Positions 14,984 through 24,411 are shown, counted from the stretch's first letter. The stretch: 64,000 bases of DNA from Corallococcus macrosporus DSM 14697 (GCF_002305895.1 NZ_CP022203.1:1528501-1592500); one strand, 5' to 3'. Translations and numbers: made by a program. Notes: generated by a model from the sequence alone, not told the origin.

Positions 14984-16819
14984 TCAGCGGACGCTGTCCA
15001 GGTACGCGCGGTGGCTGTTGGAGAACTCGAAGTTCGTGAACGCGTCCCAGTTGATGGACCAGGTCATCAGGCCCTTGAAGCCGGGGTATCCGGCGGGCGT
15101 GCGCAGCACGTAGGTGCCGCCGAAGGACTGGCCCTTGAGCAGGTAGTCGAGCGCCCTGTGCACGTTGGCCGGCGTCGTGTACCCGCCGCCCGCCGCCTGC
15201 GGTGACGAGGGCAGGCCGATGAGCACCTGGTCCGGCCGCAGCCCCGGGAACATCGCCTGGGGATTGCCGCCGACGGGGAAGCCCAGGAGCATCATCTCCG
15301 CCATGGCCACGTGGAAGTCGGGCGTGCTCTGCGCGTAGGCCCGGCCGTCCAGCGCCATGACGGTGCCGGTGTTGTAGTGCTGCACGTGCAGGTACGTCAG
15401 CCTGTCTCGCAGCGCGTGGATGACGGGCAGGTACGCGCCCCAGGGGCCGCCGTACGCGGACATGCCGCCTTGGACGTAGGCCGTCTCGGGCGCCATGGTG
15501 AGCATGAAGCCCGGGCCGTTCTGGTTGAGGAGCTGGCGCGTGGCCTGGATGACGTTGGTGATTCGCGGCGTGGTGGGGTTGCGGAAGTCGGTGTCGCCGC
15601 CGTTGAGCGACAGCGAGCTGCCCTCCAGGTCCAGGTCCAATCCGTCGAAGCCGTAGGTGTCGATGAGGGCCTGCAGGGTGGTGACGAAGTCCTGCCGCGC
15701 GGTGGCGTCATCCAGGTGGACGGTGCCGTTCGCGCCGCCAATGGAGATGAGCACCTTGCGGCCCTGGCTCTGGAGCAGGGCGATGTCCGCCTTGAAGTCC
15801 GCGACGCTCGAGTTGTACGGCGTGAAGGCCATGCGGCCGGAGCCCGGGCCACCCACGGGCTCGGCGAAGGCGACCTGGATGACGTCGAACTTCGCGGAGA
15901 CGTCCCGCAGCCGGATGTTCGTCGAGCCGTTGTCGAAGTTGTGCCAGTAGCCCACGATGATTCTGTTCCCCGCGGGCGGCGTCCCCGTCGTCGTCGCGGC
16001 GACGCTGTTGCTCGCCGCCGAGCGGTTGCCCGCCGCGTCCCGCGCCTTCGCGGTGAAGGTGTAGGTCGTGTTCGCCGCCAGACCCGTCACCGTGACGCTG
16101 GTCGCGCCCGTGGTGGTCGCGGACGCGGTGCTGCCTCCGTTGACAAAGACCTCGTAGCCGGTGACGCCCACGTCGTCGGTGGACGCGGTCCAGGCCAGCG
16201 ACACGCTGCTGTTGCTCACGCCGGTGGCGCGCAGGGCGCCGGGCGTGGAGGGCGGGATGGTGTCCGGCGCGGGGCGTGGGGCGGTCGTCACGCTGTGCGC
16301 GCTGCTCGCCGCCGAGCGGTTGCCCGCGGCGTCCCGCGCCTTCACGGTGAAGGTGTACGTGGTGTTCTCCTGGAGGCCCGTCACCGTGACGGTGGTGGCG
16401 CCCGCCGTCGTCGCGGAGGGGGACGTGCCCGCGTTGGTGAAGACCTCGTAGCCGGTGACGCCCACGTCGTCGGTGGCGGCGCCCCAGGACAGTGACACGC
16501 TCGCGTGTGTCTTCGCGGTGGAGGTGAGCGAAGGCGGCGCGGAGGGCGCCTGCGTGTCCGGAGGGGGATTCCCGGTCCGCTCCAGCCAGAGCGCTGGCGT
16601 GTTGGGCGGCTCCCAGCCCACGAGGGAGCGATGCGACTGGCGACAGTCGTAGCCCTTGCCGCCATGAGAGACGAGGTCGCCCACGGTGTACGCGGTGTCG
16701 GGCGCCCACGCGCCCCGGTCCGCCGCCAGGACGTGCGCGGGGAGCAGGACGCTGAGCAGCGTGGTGAGGACCACCAGGGCGACGAGCCCCGCCCGGTGGA
16801 GGTGTCCTGGAAGCGACAT
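14984..16819 (-). CDS. Secreted GH18 chitinase with CBM5/12 and two FN3 domains
   Basis: The 611-residue enzyme has a signal peptide (residues 1-32). A CBM5/12 chitin-binding module follows at about 36-82 (WAPDTAYTVGDLVSHGGKGY, aromatic W38, Y44, W69, W78). Two fibronectin type III domains occupy about 93-180 and 188-278. The GH18 barrel (about 286-606) carries the catalytic DGLDLDLE (392-399), with Glu399 as the acid/base. YWHNFDNGSTNIRL and FMLTMAPETAYVQGG are typical of bacterial endochitinases. It probably degrades chitin of fungal or arthropod origin outside the cell. The two FN3 domains are near copies of each other. Confidence 0.94.
   Translation of the reverse strand: MSLPGHLHRAGLVALVVLTTLLSVLLPAHVLAADRGAWAPDTAYTVGDLVSHGGKGYDCRQSHRSLVGWEPPNTPALWLERTGNPPPDTQAPSAPPSLTSTAKTHASVSLSWGAATDDVGVTGYEVFTNAGTSPSATTAGATTVTVTGLQENTTYTFTVKARDAAGNRSAASSAHSVTTAPRPAPDTIPPSTPGALRATGVSNSSVSLAWTASTDDVGVTGYEVFVNGGSTASATTTGATSVTVTGLAANTTYTFTAKARDAAGNRSAASNSVAATTTGTPPAGNRIIVGYWHNFDNGSTNIRLRDVSAKFDVIQVAFAEPVGGPGSGRMAFTPYNSSVADFKADIALLQSQGRKVLISIGGANGTVHLDDATARQDFVTTLQALIDTYGFDGLDLDLEGSSLSLNGGDTDFRNPTTPRITNVIQATRQLLNQNGPGFMLTMAPETAYVQGGMSAYGGPWGAYLPVIHALRDRLTYLHVQHYNTGTVMALDGRAYAQSTPDFHVAMAEMMLLGFPVGGNPQAMFPGLRPDQVLIGLPSSPQAAGGGYTTPANVHRALDYLLKGQSFGGTYVLRTPAGYPGFKGLMTWSINWDAFTNFEFSNSHRAYLDSVR
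15970..16520 (-). repeat. Tandemly duplicated FN3-coding segments inside the chitinase gene
   Basis: Two blocks of roughly 270 bp encode FN3 domains that share long identical stretches, such as ENTTYTFTVKARDAAGNRSA against ANTTYTFTAKARDAAGNRSA, and DDVGVTGYEVF in both. The nucleotide sequence is also nearly identical in these parts, pointing to a recent duplication or to gene conversion. Confidence 0.65.
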
Positions 16820-18093: not shown

Positions 18094-18558
18094 ATGGCCA
18101 ATACGGTCGGGGTCAACAAGATGTCCGTGGTGACCAAGGACTCCAACGGCGTCTCCGTCGCGTTTCCAGACGTCTGCAAGACGCCCAGCCCGGCGGGCCC
18201 CCTCCCCCTGCCGTACCCGAACGTGGCGCGCTCCGCCGACACCGCTCATGGCAGCAAGACGGTGACCGTGGAGGGGACCCCCTTGTGCGTGAAGGACTCA
18301 AACTTCAGCACCAGCACGGGGGATGAGGCTGGAACGGCGGGGGGCGGTGTCGTCTCTGGCAAGACGAAGGGCAAGGCCGAGTTCGTCAACTTCTCCTTCG
18401 ACGTCCAGGTCGAGGGGAAGAACGTGGCGCGGGCCCTGGACCTGATGCTGCACAACGACAAGAACACGCCTCCGTTCCCGCTGATGCAGCCGCCCGTGAT
18501 GGCGGCTGGCCTGGGCTTGGGCAGGTGCAACTGCCTGGTCTGCGAAAAGGAGCTGTAA
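18094..18558 (+). CDS. DUF4150/PAAR-like type VI secretion tip protein
   Basis: The 154-residue protein shows the DUF4150 pattern: VAFPDVCKTPSPAGPLPLPY, then NVARSADTAHGSKTVTVEGT, a conserved SNFSTSTGDEAGT block, and a tail ending in CNCLVCEKEL. DUF4150 proteins are PAAR-like: they cap the VgrG spike of type VI secretion systems and recruit effectors. ATG 18094 follows a GGGG-rich ribosome site. The gene opens a run of co-directional genes that ends with a nuclease toxin and immunity proteins, as expected for an effector-delivery module. Confidence 0.85.
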   Translation: MANTVGVNKMSVVTKDSNGVSVAFPDVCKTPSPAGPLPLPYPNVARSADTAHGSKTVTVEGTPLCVKDSNFSTSTGDEAGTAGGGVVSGKTKGKAEFVNFSFDVQVEGKNVARALDLMLHNDKNTPPFPLMQPPVMAAGLGLGRCNCLVCEKEL

Positions 18559-18576
18559 CGCGCAGGGGGGATGTCC

Positions 18577-19113
18577 ATGGCCTCACACGACCATGACGCC
18601 GGACGCACGCCTCCTCGGGCGGAGGAGCCCATCCACGGCACGCTCATTGGCCAGGTCGTCGGCCGGGGGCGAGGCGGCACGGTGCAGGTGGACTTCGAGG
18701 GCAACCGCCATGGGCCGCTGGAGGCCCGGCTCCCGCTCGTGGTGGATGAGGCCACGTTGCTTCGGGCCATCGAGGCGCGGCAGGAGGCGGTGCTCTGCTT
18801 CGAGCGGGGCTCGCCGTCGCGCCCCGTGGTCCTCGGTTTGCTGCAACCGCGCAGTGAGACACCCCTGCTGGATGCCCTGCTCGAAGCGCCCGGGGACGCG
18901 CGCCAGGACGGGGAGGTCGCCATCGTCGCCAACGGACAGCGAGTCCCCATCAAGGCGCTCCTGGACGGTGCCACCGAGGAGCTCGAGCTTCGCTGCGGCA
19001 GGTCCAGTCTGGTCCTGCGGCGCAATGGCCAGATTCTGCTTCGAGGTGAGCACGTGCTCGTCGACGCGGGCCAGGTGCTGCGCCTTCGTGGCGGCAAGAC
19101 GCAGATCAACTAG
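18577..19113 (+). CDS. DUF6484 protein, type VI secretion associated
   Basis: The 178-residue protein has an N-terminal segment (HGTLIGQVVGRGRGGTVQVD) and a domain with PLEARLPLVV and AVLCFERGSPSRPVVLGLLQ. It ends in the characteristic parallel-repeat tail RSSLVLRRNGQILLRGEHVL ... LRLRGGKTQIN. This matches DUF6484 proteins, often found beside VgrG/PAAR genes, whose tail resembles VgrG-type beta-helix repeats. ATG 18577 has AGGGGG six bases upstream; ATG 18571 is the alternative. It sits between the tip protein and the TIGR02270 gene in one transcription unit. Confidence 0.75.
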   Translation: MASHDHDAGRTPPRAEEPIHGTLIGQVVGRGRGGTVQVDFEGNRHGPLEARLPLVVDEATLLRAIEARQEAVLCFERGSPSRPVVLGLLQPRSETPLLDALLEAPGDARQDGEVAIVANGQRVPIKALLDGATEELELRCGRSSLVLRRNGQILLRGEHVLVDAGQVLRLRGGKTQIN

Positions 19114-19127
19114 GAGAGGGGCGTGAC

Positions 19128-20441
19128 GTGATGAACCCGCTGCCTCGGCACCTCGGGCTTCCCGTCTCCTGGGAGATGCTGGCGTCACACCTCGACGAGG
19201 CGGGCTTCCTGTGGAGGCAGTGGCGGCGAGCCCTCGTGGCGCCGGACCACGTCCTCGACGAGGTGGCGCGGGTGGAGGCGCGGCTGCTCGCCCATCTGGA
19301 TGCGTTGGTGCTCGCGGGGCGCGGGGCGGCGACGAGGTTGCTGATGCCCGCCCTGGTCGAAGCGGACGAGCCAGGGAGAGGGGAGTGCGCCGCGCTCGGG
19401 CTGCTGCTCCAGGAGGAGGGCCGGGAGGCGGCCGTGCGAAGCGTCCTCGAGGTGCTCCAGGCGGGGGAAGAGGGCCCGTGCTCGGCCATCCACGCCGCGC
19501 TTCTTTGTGCTCGCGGGCGAGGGCTGGAGTCCTGGCTGCGGCCCATGGTCGACGCTTCACCGTCTCCTCGGGTGCTCTCGGCGCTCCTGGAGGTCCTGGG
19601 GGTATGGCGCGTGGACCCCGGGCCCGCACTGGAGGCGTCGTTCTCACATGAGGCCATGCAGGTGCGGGCCGCCGCGTTTCGGTGTCTGCGCTCCTGGCCC
19701 GCCCGCCTGTCTGATTCCACGCTGGAGGTGGGCCTGCGCGCGTCTTCCGCCGAGGTCTCTGGCGCCGCGCTGGAGGTGGGGCTGTTGGCGGGAAGTCGGC
19801 TGGCGTGGTGGGAATGCCGCCGTCAGGTGCGGAGGGGCGGGCCGCACCGCCAGTTGGCGATGGGGGCCCTGGCCGTGGCGGGCGGGCCGGACGCCCAGAA
19901 GTCGCTGCTGGAGGGGCTGGGAGACGCCTCTCGCGGGGCGGAGACCCTGCGGGTGCTCGGGCTGTTGGGGACCTCCGAGGCGGCGCGGGCCTGTCTGGAG
20001 GCGATGCGCGAGCCGTCGTGGGCGCCGCTGGCCGCGGAGGCGTTCGCGCTGGTGACCGGCATGGACGTCCCCGCGGTGGGCCCAGGGGAGGACGGGGGCG
20101 GCATGGCGTACGAGCCGGAAGCAGACCTCCCGTTGCCCGAGGTATCCCGGGTGGAGGCGTGGTGGGCCGAGCGCGCGTCCCGGTTCAACCCGGCGTCGCG
20201 CTACGTGCGGGGGCTGCCCCTGGGGCAGGTGTCGTTGCTCGACGCGTTGCGAGACGGCGCGATGTATCGCCGCCGGTCATTGTGGTGGGCCGTGGCCCTG
20301 CGGACCCGGGGCGCGCTGGGGTTGCGCGCGGGCGCGTGGACCCGGGTCCAGCGCGCGGAAGAGGATGCCGCGAGGCGCCTGCCGCCCGCGCGCTTCGCCC
20401 AGTCGCTGGAGGGGGGCCTGGGTGCGGGGGGTGGGGCATGA
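19128..20441 (+). CDS. TIGR02270-family helical-repeat protein
   Basis: This 437-residue protein is rich in Ala/Leu helices with HEAT-like repeats (VRAAAFRCLRSWPARLSDST, LGLLGTSEAARACLEAMREP). Its N-terminal block, HLDEAGFLWRQWRRALVAPD and LARVEARL-type sequence, matches the TIGR02270 family. Members occur in proteobacterial type VI secretion neighbourhoods and their role is unknown. The start is GTG 19128 or ATG 19131, after a GGAGAGGGG site. It overlaps the next gene by 4 bp (ATGA), so the two products are probably made in equal amounts and may form a complex. Confidence 0.8.
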   Translation: MMNPLPRHLGLPVSWEMLASHLDEAGFLWRQWRRALVAPDHVLDEVARVEARLLAHLDALVLAGRGAATRLLMPALVEADEPGRGECAALGLLLQEEGREAAVRSVLEVLQAGEEGPCSAIHAALLCARGRGLESWLRPMVDASPSPRVLSALLEVLGVWRVDPGPALEASFSHEAMQVRAAAFRCLRSWPARLSDSTLEVGLRASSAEVSGAALEVGLLAGSRLAWWECRRQVRRGGPHRQLAMGALAVAGGPDAQKSLLEGLGDASRGAETLRVLGLLGTSEAARACLEAMREPSWAPLAAEAFALVTGMDVPAVGPGEDGGGMAYEPEADLPLPEVSRVEAWWAERASRFNPASRYVRGLPLGQVSLLDALRDGAMYRRRSLWWAVALRTRGALGLRAGAWTRVQRAEEDAARRLPPARFAQSLEGGLGAGGGA

Positions 20442-21556
20442 AGGTGTTTGTCGAGGCACTGGGCATGGCGTCATGTCTGGGACCGGCGATTCCCGCGTGC
20501 GCCGCGTTCCGGGCCAACCTGCTCCGCCCCTCGCCATCTCCCGATGTGGACGTCGCCGAGCCTGGCGAGGAGGTGCCTCGGCCCGTGACGGTTTGCGCCC
20601 TCCCTGCGGCGACGTTCGGTTTCTCGGGCGTCGGTCGGCTCGTGGCGCTGGCGTGCGAGGTGCTCAAGGATGTGGGCACTCGCGTGGACCTGCGGGCCCT
20701 CGGGCCGGAGACCGGCGTCTGTCTGGCGCTGCCGGACCCGTGGGAGCGAGGTCTGGACCTGGGTGAACCGGACGCCTCGGTGGCGCTGCGAGTGGAGGCG
20801 CTGGGGCGCCGTGTGTTGGACACCAGCCTGCGGAACCTGGGCCTGGAGTGGTCCGGGCCCAGGCGCTTCTTTGGCGGTGGGCACGTGGCCTTCGCGAGGG
20901 CGCTGCACGCGGCCGAGGCGGCGCTGCGGAGCGGCGGGCTTCGTTCGTGCGTGGTGATGGGGGTGGACTGCCTGGTCGAAGCGCCCACGCTCCACGCGCT
21001 GGCGGATGAACGACGGTTGAAGACGCCAGAGCAGCCCGTGGGCTTGACTCCCGGGGAAGCGGGCGCGGCCTTGTTTCTGACCACCGAGGCGCTCGTGGAG
21101 CCTTCCAGAGGGGAGGCCCAGGTGGTGCTGCATGCGGTGCGGCTCGGGGACGAGCCGCACCCGCGGGGCGCTGACAGGCCCTCGGATGGACGGGCCCTGG
21201 CGGCGTGTGCGGAGGCGGTGCTCGCGGCCGCGGGGGTCCTTCGCGCCCGGCCGCTCCTGGTGAGCGACCACAACGGTGAGGAGGGGCGGGCGCGGGAGTG
21301 GGGGATGGTGCTGCTCCACCTGCGGGCGATGGACGCCTCGTTGGAGGAACTTCAGGCCTGGTATCCCGCCATTGGCTTCGGCGACGTGGGCGCCGCGATG
21401 GGAGCGGTCAACGCGTGTGTCGCGGTCAGGGGGCTGCAGCGCGGCTATGCCCCGTCCTCCGTGAGCCTCGTCTTCGCCAGCGCGGACGATTCCGGCCGAG
21501 CCGCCATCTTGGCAGGAACCACCCCTGAGCATCCGTCCGGAGGCGCCCCGCCATGA
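20438..21556 (+). CDS. Ketoacyl-synthase-fold protein without catalytic residues (pseudoenzyme)
   Basis: The 372-residue protein has the thiolase/beta-ketoacyl synthase layout: AAEAALRSGGLRSCVVMGVD, then GLTPGEAGAALFL, then a terminal FGDVGAAMGAVNACVA block. The usual active-site residues are missing. The nucleophile position reads FFGGGHVAFARAL (144-156) with no Cys. The HGTGT site reads DHNGEE (277-282). The GH of the last motif reads GD (315-316). It is therefore probably a structural or adaptor protein rather than an enzyme. It is coupled by ATGA overlaps to the TIGR02270 gene upstream and to the AHH nuclease downstream, which suggests it helps load that effector. Confidence 0.75.
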   Translation: MKVFVEALGMASCLGPAIPACAAFRANLLRPSPSPDVDVAEPGEEVPRPVTVCALPAATFGFSGVGRLVALACEVLKDVGTRVDLRALGPETGVCLALPDPWERGLDLGEPDASVALRVEALGRRVLDTSLRNLGLEWSGPRRFFGGGHVAFARALHAAEAALRSGGLRSCVVMGVDCLVEAPTLHALADERRLKTPEQPVGLTPGEAGAALFLTTEALVEPSRGEAQVVLHAVRLGDEPHPRGADRPSDGRALAACAEAVLAAAGVLRARPLLVSDHNGEEGRAREWGMVLLHLRAMDASLEELQAWYPAIGFGDVGAAMGAVNACVAVRGLQRGYAPSSVSLVFASADDSGRAAILAGTTPEHPSGGAPP

Positions 21557-22422
21557 CGACTGGTGACACGCGGCACAATCTCAATACGGAGCTGGCACGC
21601 AGGCTCAATGGCATCTTCAAGCGCAACCTGTCTCGGAAGGACGCCGTCCGGACCGCGGCCAGGGAGGAGGCGAAGAAGCGCAAGAGCAAGAAGCAGAAGG
21701 CCGCGCCGGCTCCGGACGGGCACCTGGACCCCAACGCGCCGCTGAACGGGGTGCTGGCCAAGGGGGACAACTACGCTCGCCGGGGCTACACCTACCTCAA
21801 GGCCCAGGATGGGCGGGGCGTGTACCGCGACTTCGACCATGCGCACCTGAGCGAAATCCGGGACATGGTGAAGGAGCGGGCGGAGTTTCCGGGGGGGCCG
21901 AAGGAGAACTTCAACCCCACGTACACCCAGCAGTCTCCGTACGCCTGGGAAGCCCACCACATGCTGCCGGGCTCGGCCTTCTACTACACGATGAAGGATG
22001 GCAAGCCGGCCTTCACCTACAAGCAACTGCGGCTGTTGTTGATGTCCGAGTACAACATCAACCACGGGCACAACATCATCAATCTTCCCGCGGAAGACTG
22101 GGCCGTTCCGGTTCATTCACTCATCTGCCATCCGAGCGACCACGAGTCCTACACGATGCGAGTCATGGATGAGATGCGGAAGGTGTCCAAGCGTCTCCAG
22201 GAAGTTATCAACTCGGGAGAACCTCACGGCGATCTTCCTGAAACGGCGTTCGAGGAGTTGAAGGACCTTGAAGAAGACTTCTGGGAGTTCCTTGTTGGAC
22301 TGAGCCGGGCCATTGTCATGGCAAAGGTTACTGGAGTCAGGTTCACAGGGAGTGGCTCGGAGCACGTGCGCTACGCGAACAAGGACGGAACAACCCACTA
22401 TGAGTGGGGTAGCCTTTGGTAG
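21553..22422 (+). CDS. AHH-family nuclease toxin (probable type VI effector)
   Basis: The 289-residue protein starts with a basic region (AAREEAKKRKSKKQKAA). A toxin domain follows with the signature WEAHHMLPGSAF (AHH at 134-136) and downstream INHGHNIINLP and VHSLICHPSDHESY, which supply the expected His residues of the HNH/Endo VII-like AHH nucleases. Such domains are DNases or RNases of polymorphic toxin systems. No signal peptide or PAAR domain is fused, so delivery should rely on the upstream tip and adaptor genes. It overlaps the pseudo-ketosynthase gene by 4 bp. The base composition becomes more AT-rich towards its 3' end. Confidence 0.85.
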   Translation: MTTGDTRHNLNTELARRLNGIFKRNLSRKDAVRTAAREEAKKRKSKKQKAAPAPDGHLDPNAPLNGVLAKGDNYARRGYTYLKAQDGRGVYRDFDHAHLSEIRDMVKERAEFPGGPKENFNPTYTQQSPYAWEAHHMLPGSAFYYTMKDGKPAFTYKQLRLLLMSEYNINHGHNIINLPAEDWAVPVHSLICHPSDHESYTMRVMDEMRKVSKRLQEVINSGEPHGDLPETAFEELKDLEEDFWEFLVGLSRAIVMAKVTGVRFTGSGSEHVRYANKDGTTHYEWGSLW

Positions 22423-22432
22423 GGTGATGCTT

Positions 22433-23017
22433 ATGAACTATTGGGTGCTGAAGGCGGAGTCCGCGGATGGCGCGGTTATTGATGCATTGCCCAAGGGCAG
22501 TCCCGAAAATTGGAAAATGCATAAGGGGGAACGGCTGGAGCGACAGTTTCCGTTGGGGGGGAAGGTCTCCTTTTCAGATCATTTTCCTGACCGGCGGAAA
22601 CTGTATGACTTCGTCCGAAACACGCTGGGGGTGCTTCTGGTTTCCTCGCGAGTGCATGAGGTCCTGAAGGAATCACGCGTGGATAATGTGGAGTTTCTTC
22701 CGGTTTCCATGTGTGATCATCAGTGGAATCCCGTGTCGCAGGAGTATGGCGTCCTTAACGTCCTGGGTTCTCAAGAAGTGATTGATATGGAGAAGTCCAA
22801 GTGCCGGATGGACCGTATTACGAAGAAGGAGATCGCTCGCCTGAGCAATTTAGTGGTGGCTCATGCGCGACTGGATCCAGATGTCGGGCTGTTTCGCGCA
22901 CGAAACATGTTGGAACTCATTCTGATGTCGGACCGTGTTCATGAAGCCTTTCTAGGAGCTGGCTTGACGGGGTTTCGGGCGCATCCTGCCGAAGGTTTCA
23001 GTGACATGTTTGCATGA
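22433..23017 (+). CDS. Imm11-family (DUF1629-like) protein, copy 1
   Basis: The 194-residue protein matches the imm11 family: N-terminal MNYWVLKAES, central SFSDHFPDRRKLYDFVRNT, then FLPVSMCDHQW and LFRARNMLELILMSDRVHEA. It follows the AHH toxin gene directly, the place expected for an immunity protein that neutralises the nuclease in the producing cell. ATG 22433 was chosen because it aligns with the start of the second copy; GTG 22424 and ATG 22427 are alternatives. The gene is clearly more AT-rich than its surroundings, a sign of acquisition. Confidence 0.8.
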   Translation: MNYWVLKAESADGAVIDALPKGSPENWKMHKGERLERQFPLGGKVSFSDHFPDRRKLYDFVRNTLGVLLVSSRVHEVLKESRVDNVEFLPVSMCDHQWNPVSQEYGVLNVLGSQEVIDMEKSKCRMDRITKKEIARLSNLVVAHARLDPDVGLFRARNMLELILMSDRVHEAFLGAGLTGFRAHPAEGFSDMFA

Positions 23018-23030
23018 GTCGCACTGGTCC

Positions 23031-23612
23031 ATGAACTACTGTGTATTGAGAGCTGAGTCGTTCGATGGGGCCATCATTGATGCCTTGCCCCACGACAGTC
23101 CGACCAATTGGAAGTTCAGCACGGGAGAGCCACTTGCACGCAGCTTTCCTGCTGGAGGGAAGGTGTCGTTTTCGGACCACTTTCCGGACCGGCGGAAGCT
23201 TTACGATTTCGTACGAAACACCGTGGGCGTTTTGCTCGTGTCGTCACGTGTGAAGCAGGTGCTGGACGACCTGCAGGTCGACAATACGGAATTTCTCCCG
23301 ATTGTCATTTGCGATCATCAGTGGCGTGAGTTGACTGGTGACTATGGCATTCTGAATGTCCTGGGCTCGCAAGAGGCGATTGATATGGGGAAATCCGCTT
23401 ATGATGCCAGTGTGCTTTCGAGCGAGATAAGTCACGTTAGTAGTCTTGTTTTGACTCAGGGGAAAATCGACCCGAAGGCCGACATCTTCCGCGCCCGGAA
23501 CATGATGGAGCTCATCCTGATTTCGGACCGGGTCAAGCTGGCCTTCGAGCGGGCGGGGCTGACGGGCTTCCGCGCCCGTCCCGCCGAAGGCTTCGACGAC
23601 ATGTTCGCCTGA
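23031..23612 (+). CDS. Imm11-family (DUF1629-like) protein, copy 2
   Basis: This is a 193-residue tandem paralogue of the preceding protein. It keeps the same start (MNYCVLRAES), the identical central block (VSFSDHFPDRRKLYDFVRN) and a very similar C-terminus (GLTGFRARPAEGFDDMFA). The middle third has diverged (SAYDASVLSSEISHVSSLV), so each copy may recognise a different toxin or a different toxin face. It lies 13 bp after copy 1, and its 3' half returns to the high GC of the chromosome. Confidence 0.8.
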   Translation: MNYCVLRAESFDGAIIDALPHDSPTNWKFSTGEPLARSFPAGGKVSFSDHFPDRRKLYDFVRNTVGVLLVSSRVKQVLDDLQVDNTEFLPIVICDHQWRELTGDYGILNVLGSQEAIDMGKSAYDASVLSSEISHVSSLVLTQGKIDPKADIFRARNMMELILISDRVKLAFERAGLTGFRARPAEGFDDMFA

Positions 23613-23628
23613 ACCTGGAGGAGGCAGC

Positions 23629-24411
23629 GTGGCAAAGCTCTCGGCACTGCGGGAGGACTCCGGGCGGGCCATTGTTCGACTGATGCGTCAGGTCGAGCCC
23701 GCCGCGAACCGGGAGGTCCTGGTGCGGACCGTGGACGAACTCTGCCTCCACTTCCACGTCGTGGCGGTGGCCACCCTGCTCGTGGATGGCAACCCGCAGG
23801 GCTTCTTCCTCAACCTGTGCCGAGCCGCCGAGAACTGGAGGCGACTGCTGACGCATTGCCGGCTCAAGCAGTGGGCGCTTCCCGCTTCGCGCTACATGGA
23901 GCCGCTGCTCGGTGCCGTCGCGGCGGGGCATTGGAGTCTGGCGCGACAGGTCGCCGAATTCGCTGAAACGCGCTGGCTCCCGGACGAGGAGTACCGCTCC
24001 GAGCACGCCCGCGCCCAGCTCTTCCATGCGCTGGTCTCCCCCGGCACCCGAGACGTCGTCATCCCGAGGGTGGAGGCGCTGGAGGCACTGGAACTCGAGA
24101 CGGAGCCGGACCGGGCTGCCTGTGCCCGCGCCCTGCTCGATGGCGACGCAGCGGCCTTCTCCGACGCCTTCAGACACGCCGTGCTCGTGCATGGCGAGGA
24201 CATCGAGAAGCGCGCGAAGCTCTTCACGACCCCCGTGACACGCTTCGCGCCGAAGCGTGCCATCTGGCTGGAGGGGCTCGCCCTGCTCAGGCTCTCCGAG
24301 CGCGCGGACATCGCGAGCTTCGACGAGCACTTCCAGTACTGCCCGCCGCTGGCCCGCACACCCATGACGTCGCGGTACACCGGGGACTGGGTCGTTTCTC
24401 TCGGTCCCTGA
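23629..24411 (+). CDS. Probable immunity protein, Imm49-like
   Basis: The 260-residue, mostly helical protein begins with GTG after a strong GGAGG site. HFHVVAVATLLVDGNPQGFF, LCRAAENWRRLLTHCRL, YMEPLLGAVAAGHW and the C-terminal TRFAPKRAIWLEGLALLRLS recall the Imm49 family of polymorphic-toxin immunity proteins. The family call is less certain than for the Imm11 pair. It is the last gene of the cassette and is followed by a clear terminator hairpin, which supports membership in the same unit. Confidence 0.55.
   Translation: MAKLSALREDSGRAIVRLMRQVEPAANREVLVRTVDELCLHFHVVAVATLLVDGNPQGFFLNLCRAAENWRRLLTHCRLKQWALPASRYMEPLLGAVAAGHWSLARQVAEFAETRWLPDEEYRSEHARAQLFHALVSPGTRDVVIPRVEALEALELETEPDRAACARALLDGDAAAFSDAFRHAVLVHGEDIEKRAKLFTTPVTRFAPKRAIWLEGLALLRLSERADIASFDEHFQYCPPLARTPMTSRYTGDWVVSLGP

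Follow-up and report, generated by a model that had tools for sequence, protein, structure and literature searches.

A putative type VI spike-loading cassette in Corallococcus macrosporus that pairs a TIGR02270 protein with TvpD and has no DUF2169 gene in its neighbourhood

Here we describe eight genes of Corallococcus macrosporus DSM 14697 that, judged by their sequence, make up a cassette for loading type VI secretion spikes, akin to Class II Tvp systems. In our preferred reading, to which we give a probability of about 0.7, a scaffold of a TIGR02270 protein and the ketosynthase-fold protein TvpD, together with TvpC, would hold a PIPY spike tip and an AHH nuclease ready to be loaded onto a VgrG encoded far away. 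An already published locus is probably orthologous to this cassette. Two features of the cassette were not found in the literature searched, namely the near-constant presence of TIGR02270 as a partner predicted to pack with TvpD, and the absence of DUF2169 (TvpA), which is supposedly defining for such systems.

The window is the whole stretch of DNA analyzed, 64 kb of an 8.97 Mb genome assembled as one contig, and coordinates are counted from its first letter. An earlier note had proposed eight co-directional genes here, and all of them (8/8) are present as open reading frames on the + strand:

18094..18558, + strand: PAAR-like (DUF4150/PIPY) spike-tip protein, stand-alone, 154 aa, with the PLPY variant of the PIPY motif (PF13665, E=3.7e-40)
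18571..19113, + strand: DUF6484 protein, TvpC; alternative start at 18577 possible (PF20093, E=6.1e-13)
19131..20441, + strand: TIGR02270 HEAT/ARM-repeat protein, 436 aa; alternative GTG start at 19128 possible (TIGR02270, 465 bits, E=1.9e-139)
20438..21556, + strand: TvpD-like, catalytically dead ketosynthase-fold protein (pseudo-KS), 372 aa (NF004798 / PRK06147-like, 148 bits, E=2.9e-43)
21553..22422, + strand: AHH nuclease (HNH/EndoVII superfamily), 289 aa (PF14412, E=1e-6)
22427..23017, + strand: Imm11 immunity protein, first copy, ATG at 22427 or 22433 (PF07791, E=4.2e-11)
23031..23612, + strand: Imm11 immunity protein, second copy (PF07791, E=6.4e-14)
23629..24411, + strand: Imm49-like protein, 260 aa (PF15575, E=0.072, sub-threshold)
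22200..23600, + strand: island of divergence and low GC over the C-terminal third of the nuclease and both Imm11 genes (drop in identity and GC)

The proposed families held for DUF4150, DUF6484, TIGR02270, the ketosynthase fold, AHH and the two Imm11 proteins; membership in Imm49 did not, with 13.1 bits against PF15575 and a Pfam gathering threshold of 30.1. The TIGR02270 protein scores well above the curated cut-off of 206.8 bits and covers positions 2-410 of the 410 in the model. The TvpD-like protein covers nearly the full length of NF004798, at a score below the 342-bit equivalog cut-off. The nuclease translation carries an EAHH motif, and the Imm11 genes come after it. Tip and nuclease are encoded separately, rather than as the PAAR-effector fusion by which Class II Tvp systems are recognized.

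The TIGR02270 and TvpD genes overlap by four bases (ATGA, 20438-20441), as do the TvpD and nuclease genes (21553-21556), and the second overlap (gap -4) is kept in 8/8 of the closest orthologues examined. From these overlaps the earlier note had suggested that the three products are made as a unit, and natural fusions, the packing modelled for one of them and the gene neighbourhoods described below support the view that the three genes behave as a unit. TIGR02270 and TvpD domains are fused in 33 ORFs, equal to 22 non-redundant loci, and the fusion state changed at least 3 times on the TIGR02270 tree. AlphaFold2 modelled a natural 834-aa fusion from another genome with a pLDDT of 92.2, a pTM of 0.91 and a disordered linker at residues 447-457. 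Since this pTM was reached for domains of ~440 and ~370 residues, the model confidently places the two relative to each other, in one predicted compact body; the fusion tether and the alignment could favour such packing. The C-terminal domain of the fusion has a ketosynthase fold (Z 35.8 against ketosynthases). Modelled alone, the cassette's own TIGR02270 protein is a HEAT/ARM-type solenoid (pLDDT 93.3, pTM 0.91), and the matches listed for it among solved structures are HEAT/ARM-type helical repeats only, with YibA the best (Z 14.9). The unfused pair of the cassette presumably binds in a similar way. As had been proposed, the ketosynthase is by its sequence a pseudoenzyme: the triad reads H/D/D in the cassette protein, not Cys-His-His, and among the family members a nucleophilic Cys occurs in 0/143 and a complete C-H-H triad in none.

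We collected TIGR02270 loci from many myxobacterial genomes and annotated them with purpose-built HMMs; counts refer to 121 non-redundant loci on contigs of at least 14 kb, with neighbours taken within 8 kb. A pseudo-KS gene accompanies TIGR02270 at 115 of them and a PAAR-like gene at 114, with DUF2169 at 80, DUF6484 at 59 and VgrG at 16. By chance, TvpD would be expected within 8 kb at ~3% of loci (14 copies in 9 Mb). The genes therefore keep company rather than occurring in unrelated contexts, and the conserved order that the earlier note had asked about was found as well. The order PIPY-TvpC-TIGR02270-TvpD-AHH-Imm11-Imm49L recurs in other Myxococcaceae, mostly without TvpA within 8 kb, and close variants occur in other proteobacteria. 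The same gene set is present in Caballeronia, Robbsia, Mesorhizobium and Rhodobacter, mostly as DUF6484-TIGR02270-DUF2169-PRK06147-DUF4150 and often right behind VgrG. A plasmid tblastn search with distant queries gave few matches, with informative gene contexts. Pseudomonas aeruginosa PA7 has a TIGR02270 protein (607 bits) within a VgrG1b-type cluster. On these gene contexts, TIGR02270 nearly always accompanies the Class II genes, and the partnership extends to Burkholderiaceae, alphaproteobacteria and P. aeruginosa. In 93 of 134 cases, the gene directly 3' of TvpD codes for a tip of the PIPY type (52) or for an AHH nuclease (41); in some cassettes Imm49L, rather than a toxin, comes next.

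The cassette had also been described as lacking its own VgrG and sheath. HMM searches found no VgrG in the 64-kb window, and the two full-length VgrGs and one main sheath locus of the genome lie ~4.3 Mb or more away. The genome holds 13 PAAR-like, 12 TIGR02270, ~14 pseudo-KS, 8 DUF2169 and 4 clear DUF6484 genes, and every PAAR-like gene stands in a cassette with TIGR02270 and pseudo-KS, the sole exception being a lone PIPY gene (L070). Cassettes of one kind (L068, L069, L071, L072, L073) carry the toxin covalently on the tip, with DUF2169 adjacent. Those of the other kind encode tip and toxin separately, in most cases together with Imm11 and Imm49-like proteins; three have DUF2169 (L062, L063, L065), and the cassette studied here, L064, L066 and L067 have none. 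In L067, TIGR02270 and pseudo-KS form a single 840-aa protein. Two further loci, L074 and L075, contain a pseudo-KS without a PAAR-like gene.

Neither HMM nor tblastn searches of the window found DUF2169 or a TvpA relic, an absence on which the earlier note does not comment. Published work in Vibrio and Pseudomonas describes DUF2169 as essential for PIPY tips. About a third of the TIGR02270 loci lack TvpA, for the most part loci whose PIPY is stand-alone. Loci whose tips have a C-terminal extension contain DUF2169 in 39/40 cases and Imm11 in 0/40; for stand-alone tips the figures are 41/74 and 63/74. The association of covalent toxin with TvpA (39/40 vs 41/74, Fisher p 8e-7) is absent after phylogenetic pairing (5 pairs, p=1), and because it is not phylogenetically independent we use the contrast descriptively, with no causal claim. 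A cassette of the same type in another genus (L089) carries a DUF2169 pseudogene, in several frames, directly before the tip gene, so the ancestral cassette probably had DUF2169. On the TIGR02270 tree the presence of cis TvpA changed at least 20 times, with the remaining cassette intact.

These losses allow two views of how the tip is held. With a chance somewhat short of even, this is a conventional Class II Tvp system in which a TvpA paralogue encoded in another cassette acts in trans, and the missing gene is mechanistically nothing new. Eight DUF2169 genes elsewhere in the genome are in keeping with this, as is the presence of DUF2169 in 51/52 genomes with strong TIGR02270 matches (E <= 1e-30). 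G011 was considered as a genome with TIGR02270 cassettes but zero DUF2169, the only such case in 52, and was dropped for its far weaker best match and lack of PIPY. The PIPY/PLPY motif gripped by DUF2169 is also kept in 33/35 TvpA-less stand-alone tips; its loss, which was looked for, was not seen, and its retention does not separate a DUF2169 that was replaced from one acting in trans. However, each of the eight paralogues (8/8) sits in a cassette with a PIPY of its own and none is free-standing, some genomes encode far more tips than DUF2169 proteins (G121, for instance, has 2 DUF2169 genes for its 6 PIPYs), and the repeated changes in cis TvpA and the L089 pseudogene also speak against supply in trans. 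Tentatively, at roughly one chance in three, the cassette would instead represent a fourth, TvpA-independent Tvp class. Here the TIGR02270-TvpD scaffold would replace DUF2169 in shielding PIPY and also capture a free-standing nuclease, so that the toxin needs no covalent link to the tip, and the toxin tail and immunity genes could be swapped within a conserved chassis.

It is unlikely that the pseudo-KS serves as a cargo-specific nuclease adaptor and TIGR02270 handles the tip, with the two not forming one unit. Such a division would suit L074, where TvpD still precedes genes for an AHH nuclease and Imm11 with no PIPY or TIGR02270 near, and it would suit the frequent position of TIGR02270 next to PIPY or TvpC. 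In mirror-tree comparisons of whole-protein divergence, TvpD follows Imm11 (rho 0.46) more closely than TIGR02270 (0.28), a value that lies below those of PIPY-TvpD (0.51) and PIPY-TvpA (0.63) and counts against one unit; all of these correlations are weak, and assigning neighbours by nearest gene confounds them. The TIGR02270-TvpD fusions and their confident packing argue for one unit. Natural fusions of PIPY with TIGR02270, TvpD or TvpA were also sought, and none was found.

We consider it improbable that TIGR02270 is an immunity protein rather than a loader. It has a helical-repeat fold, HEAT-like repeat proteins are known as candidate immunity factors, and in P. aeruginosa its gene lies 3' of the effector, the usual place of an immunity gene. 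Yet many genomes encode it as a fusion with TvpD, its gene is usually found 5' of the effector gene, it occurs alongside unrelated effectors, and its divergence matches that of the chassis rather than that of the segment with the toxin tail and Imm11. That the island is decaying or inactive and persists only through its neighbourhood, as the loss of TvpA and the lack of a nearby VgrG might suggest, is highly improbable: the ORFs are intact, all cassette genes evolve under purifying selection (dN/dS 0.05-0.36 where dS was measurable; 0.09-0.15 for the tip gene), and the apparent orthologue in M. xanthus is functional (PMC5996272, PMC12077131). Selection and conserved gene order likewise ruled out a reading as orphan debris.

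Nuclease orthologues of 287-291 aa occupy the same place in the locus, including orthologues of 288 aa (867 bp) followed by an Imm11 of 194 aa (585 bp), and the locus lies at ~1.54 Mb in G121 and 1.55 Mb in the DSM 14697 genome. In M. xanthus, PMC5996272 gives MXAN_1307 (867 bp) and MXAN_RS36575 (585 bp) as the SI04/SI05 colony-incompatibility genes. Gene lengths, order and approximate position suggest that the nuclease and Imm11 genes are orthologous to the Toxin2/Imm2 locus (MXAN_1307/MXAN_RS36575); these same features and the spacing of gene IDs make it most likely that Toxin2/Imm2 of PMC12077131 is that locus. The nuclease and immunity part put forward in the earlier note is real, but an orthologous locus appears to have been published already. 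According to PMC12077131, PAAR deletion abolishes the Toxin1-4 phenotypes, including deletion of the PAAR linked to Toxin2, and the variable N-terminal 40-70 residues of the M. xanthus nucleases are required for delivery and dispensable for toxicity. The apparent orthologous locus is described in both papers (PMC5996272, PMC12077131) as mediating PAAR-dependent, nuclease-based kin discrimination. The copy in M. xanthus AM003 (L082) has no DUF2169 within ~8 kb either side of the TIGR02270 gene; if DK1622 is like AM003, a DUF2169-less cassette is functional.

Across the orthologous loci, identity is ~0.9 in the chassis and chromosomal flanks and falls to ~0.7 in the island, where GC drops from 0.72 to 0.54; the first Imm11 gene is within this hypervariable segment. 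The toxin tail and Imm11 therefore look exchangeable, judging from the divergence pattern. The Imm49-like gene diverges like the chassis (dS ~0.3), unlike the toxin tail, and its product may be a general partner rather than an allele-specific immunity protein. Imm49-like genes are found near many AHH/Imm11 loci. A 2026 paper independently describes a single nuclease on which two unrelated immunity proteins act (PMC13392607).

In the preferred TIGR02270-TvpD scaffold reading, the two proteins would bind each other to give a single scaffold, and TvpC, as a short substitute for VgrG, would hold the stand-alone PIPY tip. The scaffold would shield the tip and capture the AHH nuclease, the capture being made by TvpD or by the scaffold as a whole, probably via the variable nuclease N-terminus. 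We propose recognition of the N-terminus because the TvpD gene is positioned 5' of the PIPY or nuclease gene and because this region is needed for delivery in M. xanthus (PMC12077131). One of the two distant VgrGs would then receive the loaded tip, and the main T6SS would fire it. Protection of the producer and its kin would fall to Imm11 and perhaps also to the Imm49-like protein. Binding to PIPY and the nuclease, and the hand-over to VgrG, are steps that we infer.

Most of the parts are known from other systems. Monlezun et al. 2026 named DUF6484 TvpC and PRK06147 TvpD, modelled both around the Tse7 PAAR domain, described TvpC as a short VgrG mimic in the Class II scheme and took DUF2169/TvpA as the defining feature of all Tvp classes (PMC13373197). 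The Class II system of P. aeruginosa (VgrG1b-PA0096-PA0097-PA0098-Tse7; PMC13373197) has TvpC, TvpD and the DUF4150/PIPY tip in common with the cassette, and also TIGR02270, as found in the PA7 cluster. Unlike that system, the cassette has no cis DUF2169 or VgrG and keeps tip and nuclease separate. Sachar et al. 2025 reported that DUF4150 (PIPY) tips need DUF2169, and listed DUF6484, "thiolase-like" and "armadillo-like repeat" genes as conserved DUF2169 partners, with function unassigned (PMC11883445). Such genes surround a DUF4150 effector in synteny type A DUF2169 clusters (PMC11883445), for example Proteus mirabilis pef (PMC5714391), as they do here, and in pef effector function needs operon genes beyond the toxin-immunity pair (PMC5714391). 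In those clusters DUF2169 is the anchor, whereas it is absent here, and the armadillo-like gene is assigned neither to TIGR02270 nor to a function. The earlier note's view that the combination is undescribed thus holds in part: TvpC and TvpD had been modelled and the partners listed, but a role for TIGR02270 is absent from the literature searched. The text of PMC13373197 mentions none of TIGR02270, PA0100 and PA0101, and a full-text search for TIGR02270 found no paper in the literature collection covered. The Class III Tvp system of Serratia marcescens (VgrG1-Paar1) also has a small stand-alone tip without a toxin domain, but uses a DUF3540 TvpC and a pentapeptide-repeat TvpB where the cassette has DUF6484 and TIGR02270. 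The M. xanthus Toxin1-4/Imm1-4 loci likewise comprise a single-domain PAAR-like gene, an AHH nuclease and an Imm11-sized immunity gene; in the available parts of PMC12077131 and PMC5996272, PAAR is treated as the loader and the TIGR02270, TvpD and DUF6484 genes lie outside the study.

If the scaffold reading is true, the Class II Tvp complex includes an overlooked TIGR02270 protein, and a genetically tractable social bacterium has a version without DUF2169 that apparently works. Which accessory proteins hold the PIPY tip would then become a directly testable question. The cassette ties the genetics of Myxococcus kin discrimination, so far at the level of toxin and immunity, to a defined loading machinery.

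The cassette of the window lacks a DUF2169 gene (TvpA). At two other cassette loci, L103 and L104, DUF2169 precedes a stand-alone gene for the PAAR-like tip protein PIPY (DUF4150). The order displayed by these two loci, DUF2169-PIPY-(DUF6484)-TIGR02270-TvpD-AHH-Imm11-Imm49L, is likely ancestral. In another genus, an intact window-type cassette (L089) has a DUF2169 pseudogene, spread over several frames, directly 5' of it (L089:6325-7288).

Within the window, a sharp island of low GC and high divergence (22200-23600) spans both Imm11 genes and the C-terminal third of the nuclease, in a locus that is otherwise about 90% identical. This island looks like an allelic exchange of the toxin tail together with immunity. 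At 14984-16819 (-) lies a secreted protein with fibronectin-III-like repeats and a DGLDLDLE motif, read off the translation, of the type characteristic of GH18 chitinases.

The source genome also contains variant loci. At L074 (G000:C1:103025-106192), the gene for the pseudo-KS protein TvpD stands ahead of one for an AHH nuclease and a pair of Imm11 genes, with PAAR-like, TIGR02270 and DUF2169 genes all absent from the vicinity; this is possibly a payload cassette that borrows its tip. L064 (G000:C1:331259-334258) is a 999-aa ORF with a C-terminal TIGR02270 domain; its start codon is uncertain, and its first approximately 560 residues matched no Pfam family. Myxococcus-type cassettes were also found under the label "Comamonas sp. 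KCTC 72670" (BNCN01, loci L218 and L232), probably a mislabelled record.

Gene counts in myxobacterial genomes indicated that many Myxococcaceae have more PAAR-like than DUF2169 genes; the numbers were, for instance, 6 versus 2 in genome G121 and 9 versus 4 in genome G104. This surplus differs from the 1:1 ratio described for most bacteria (Sachar et al. 2025, PMC11883445).
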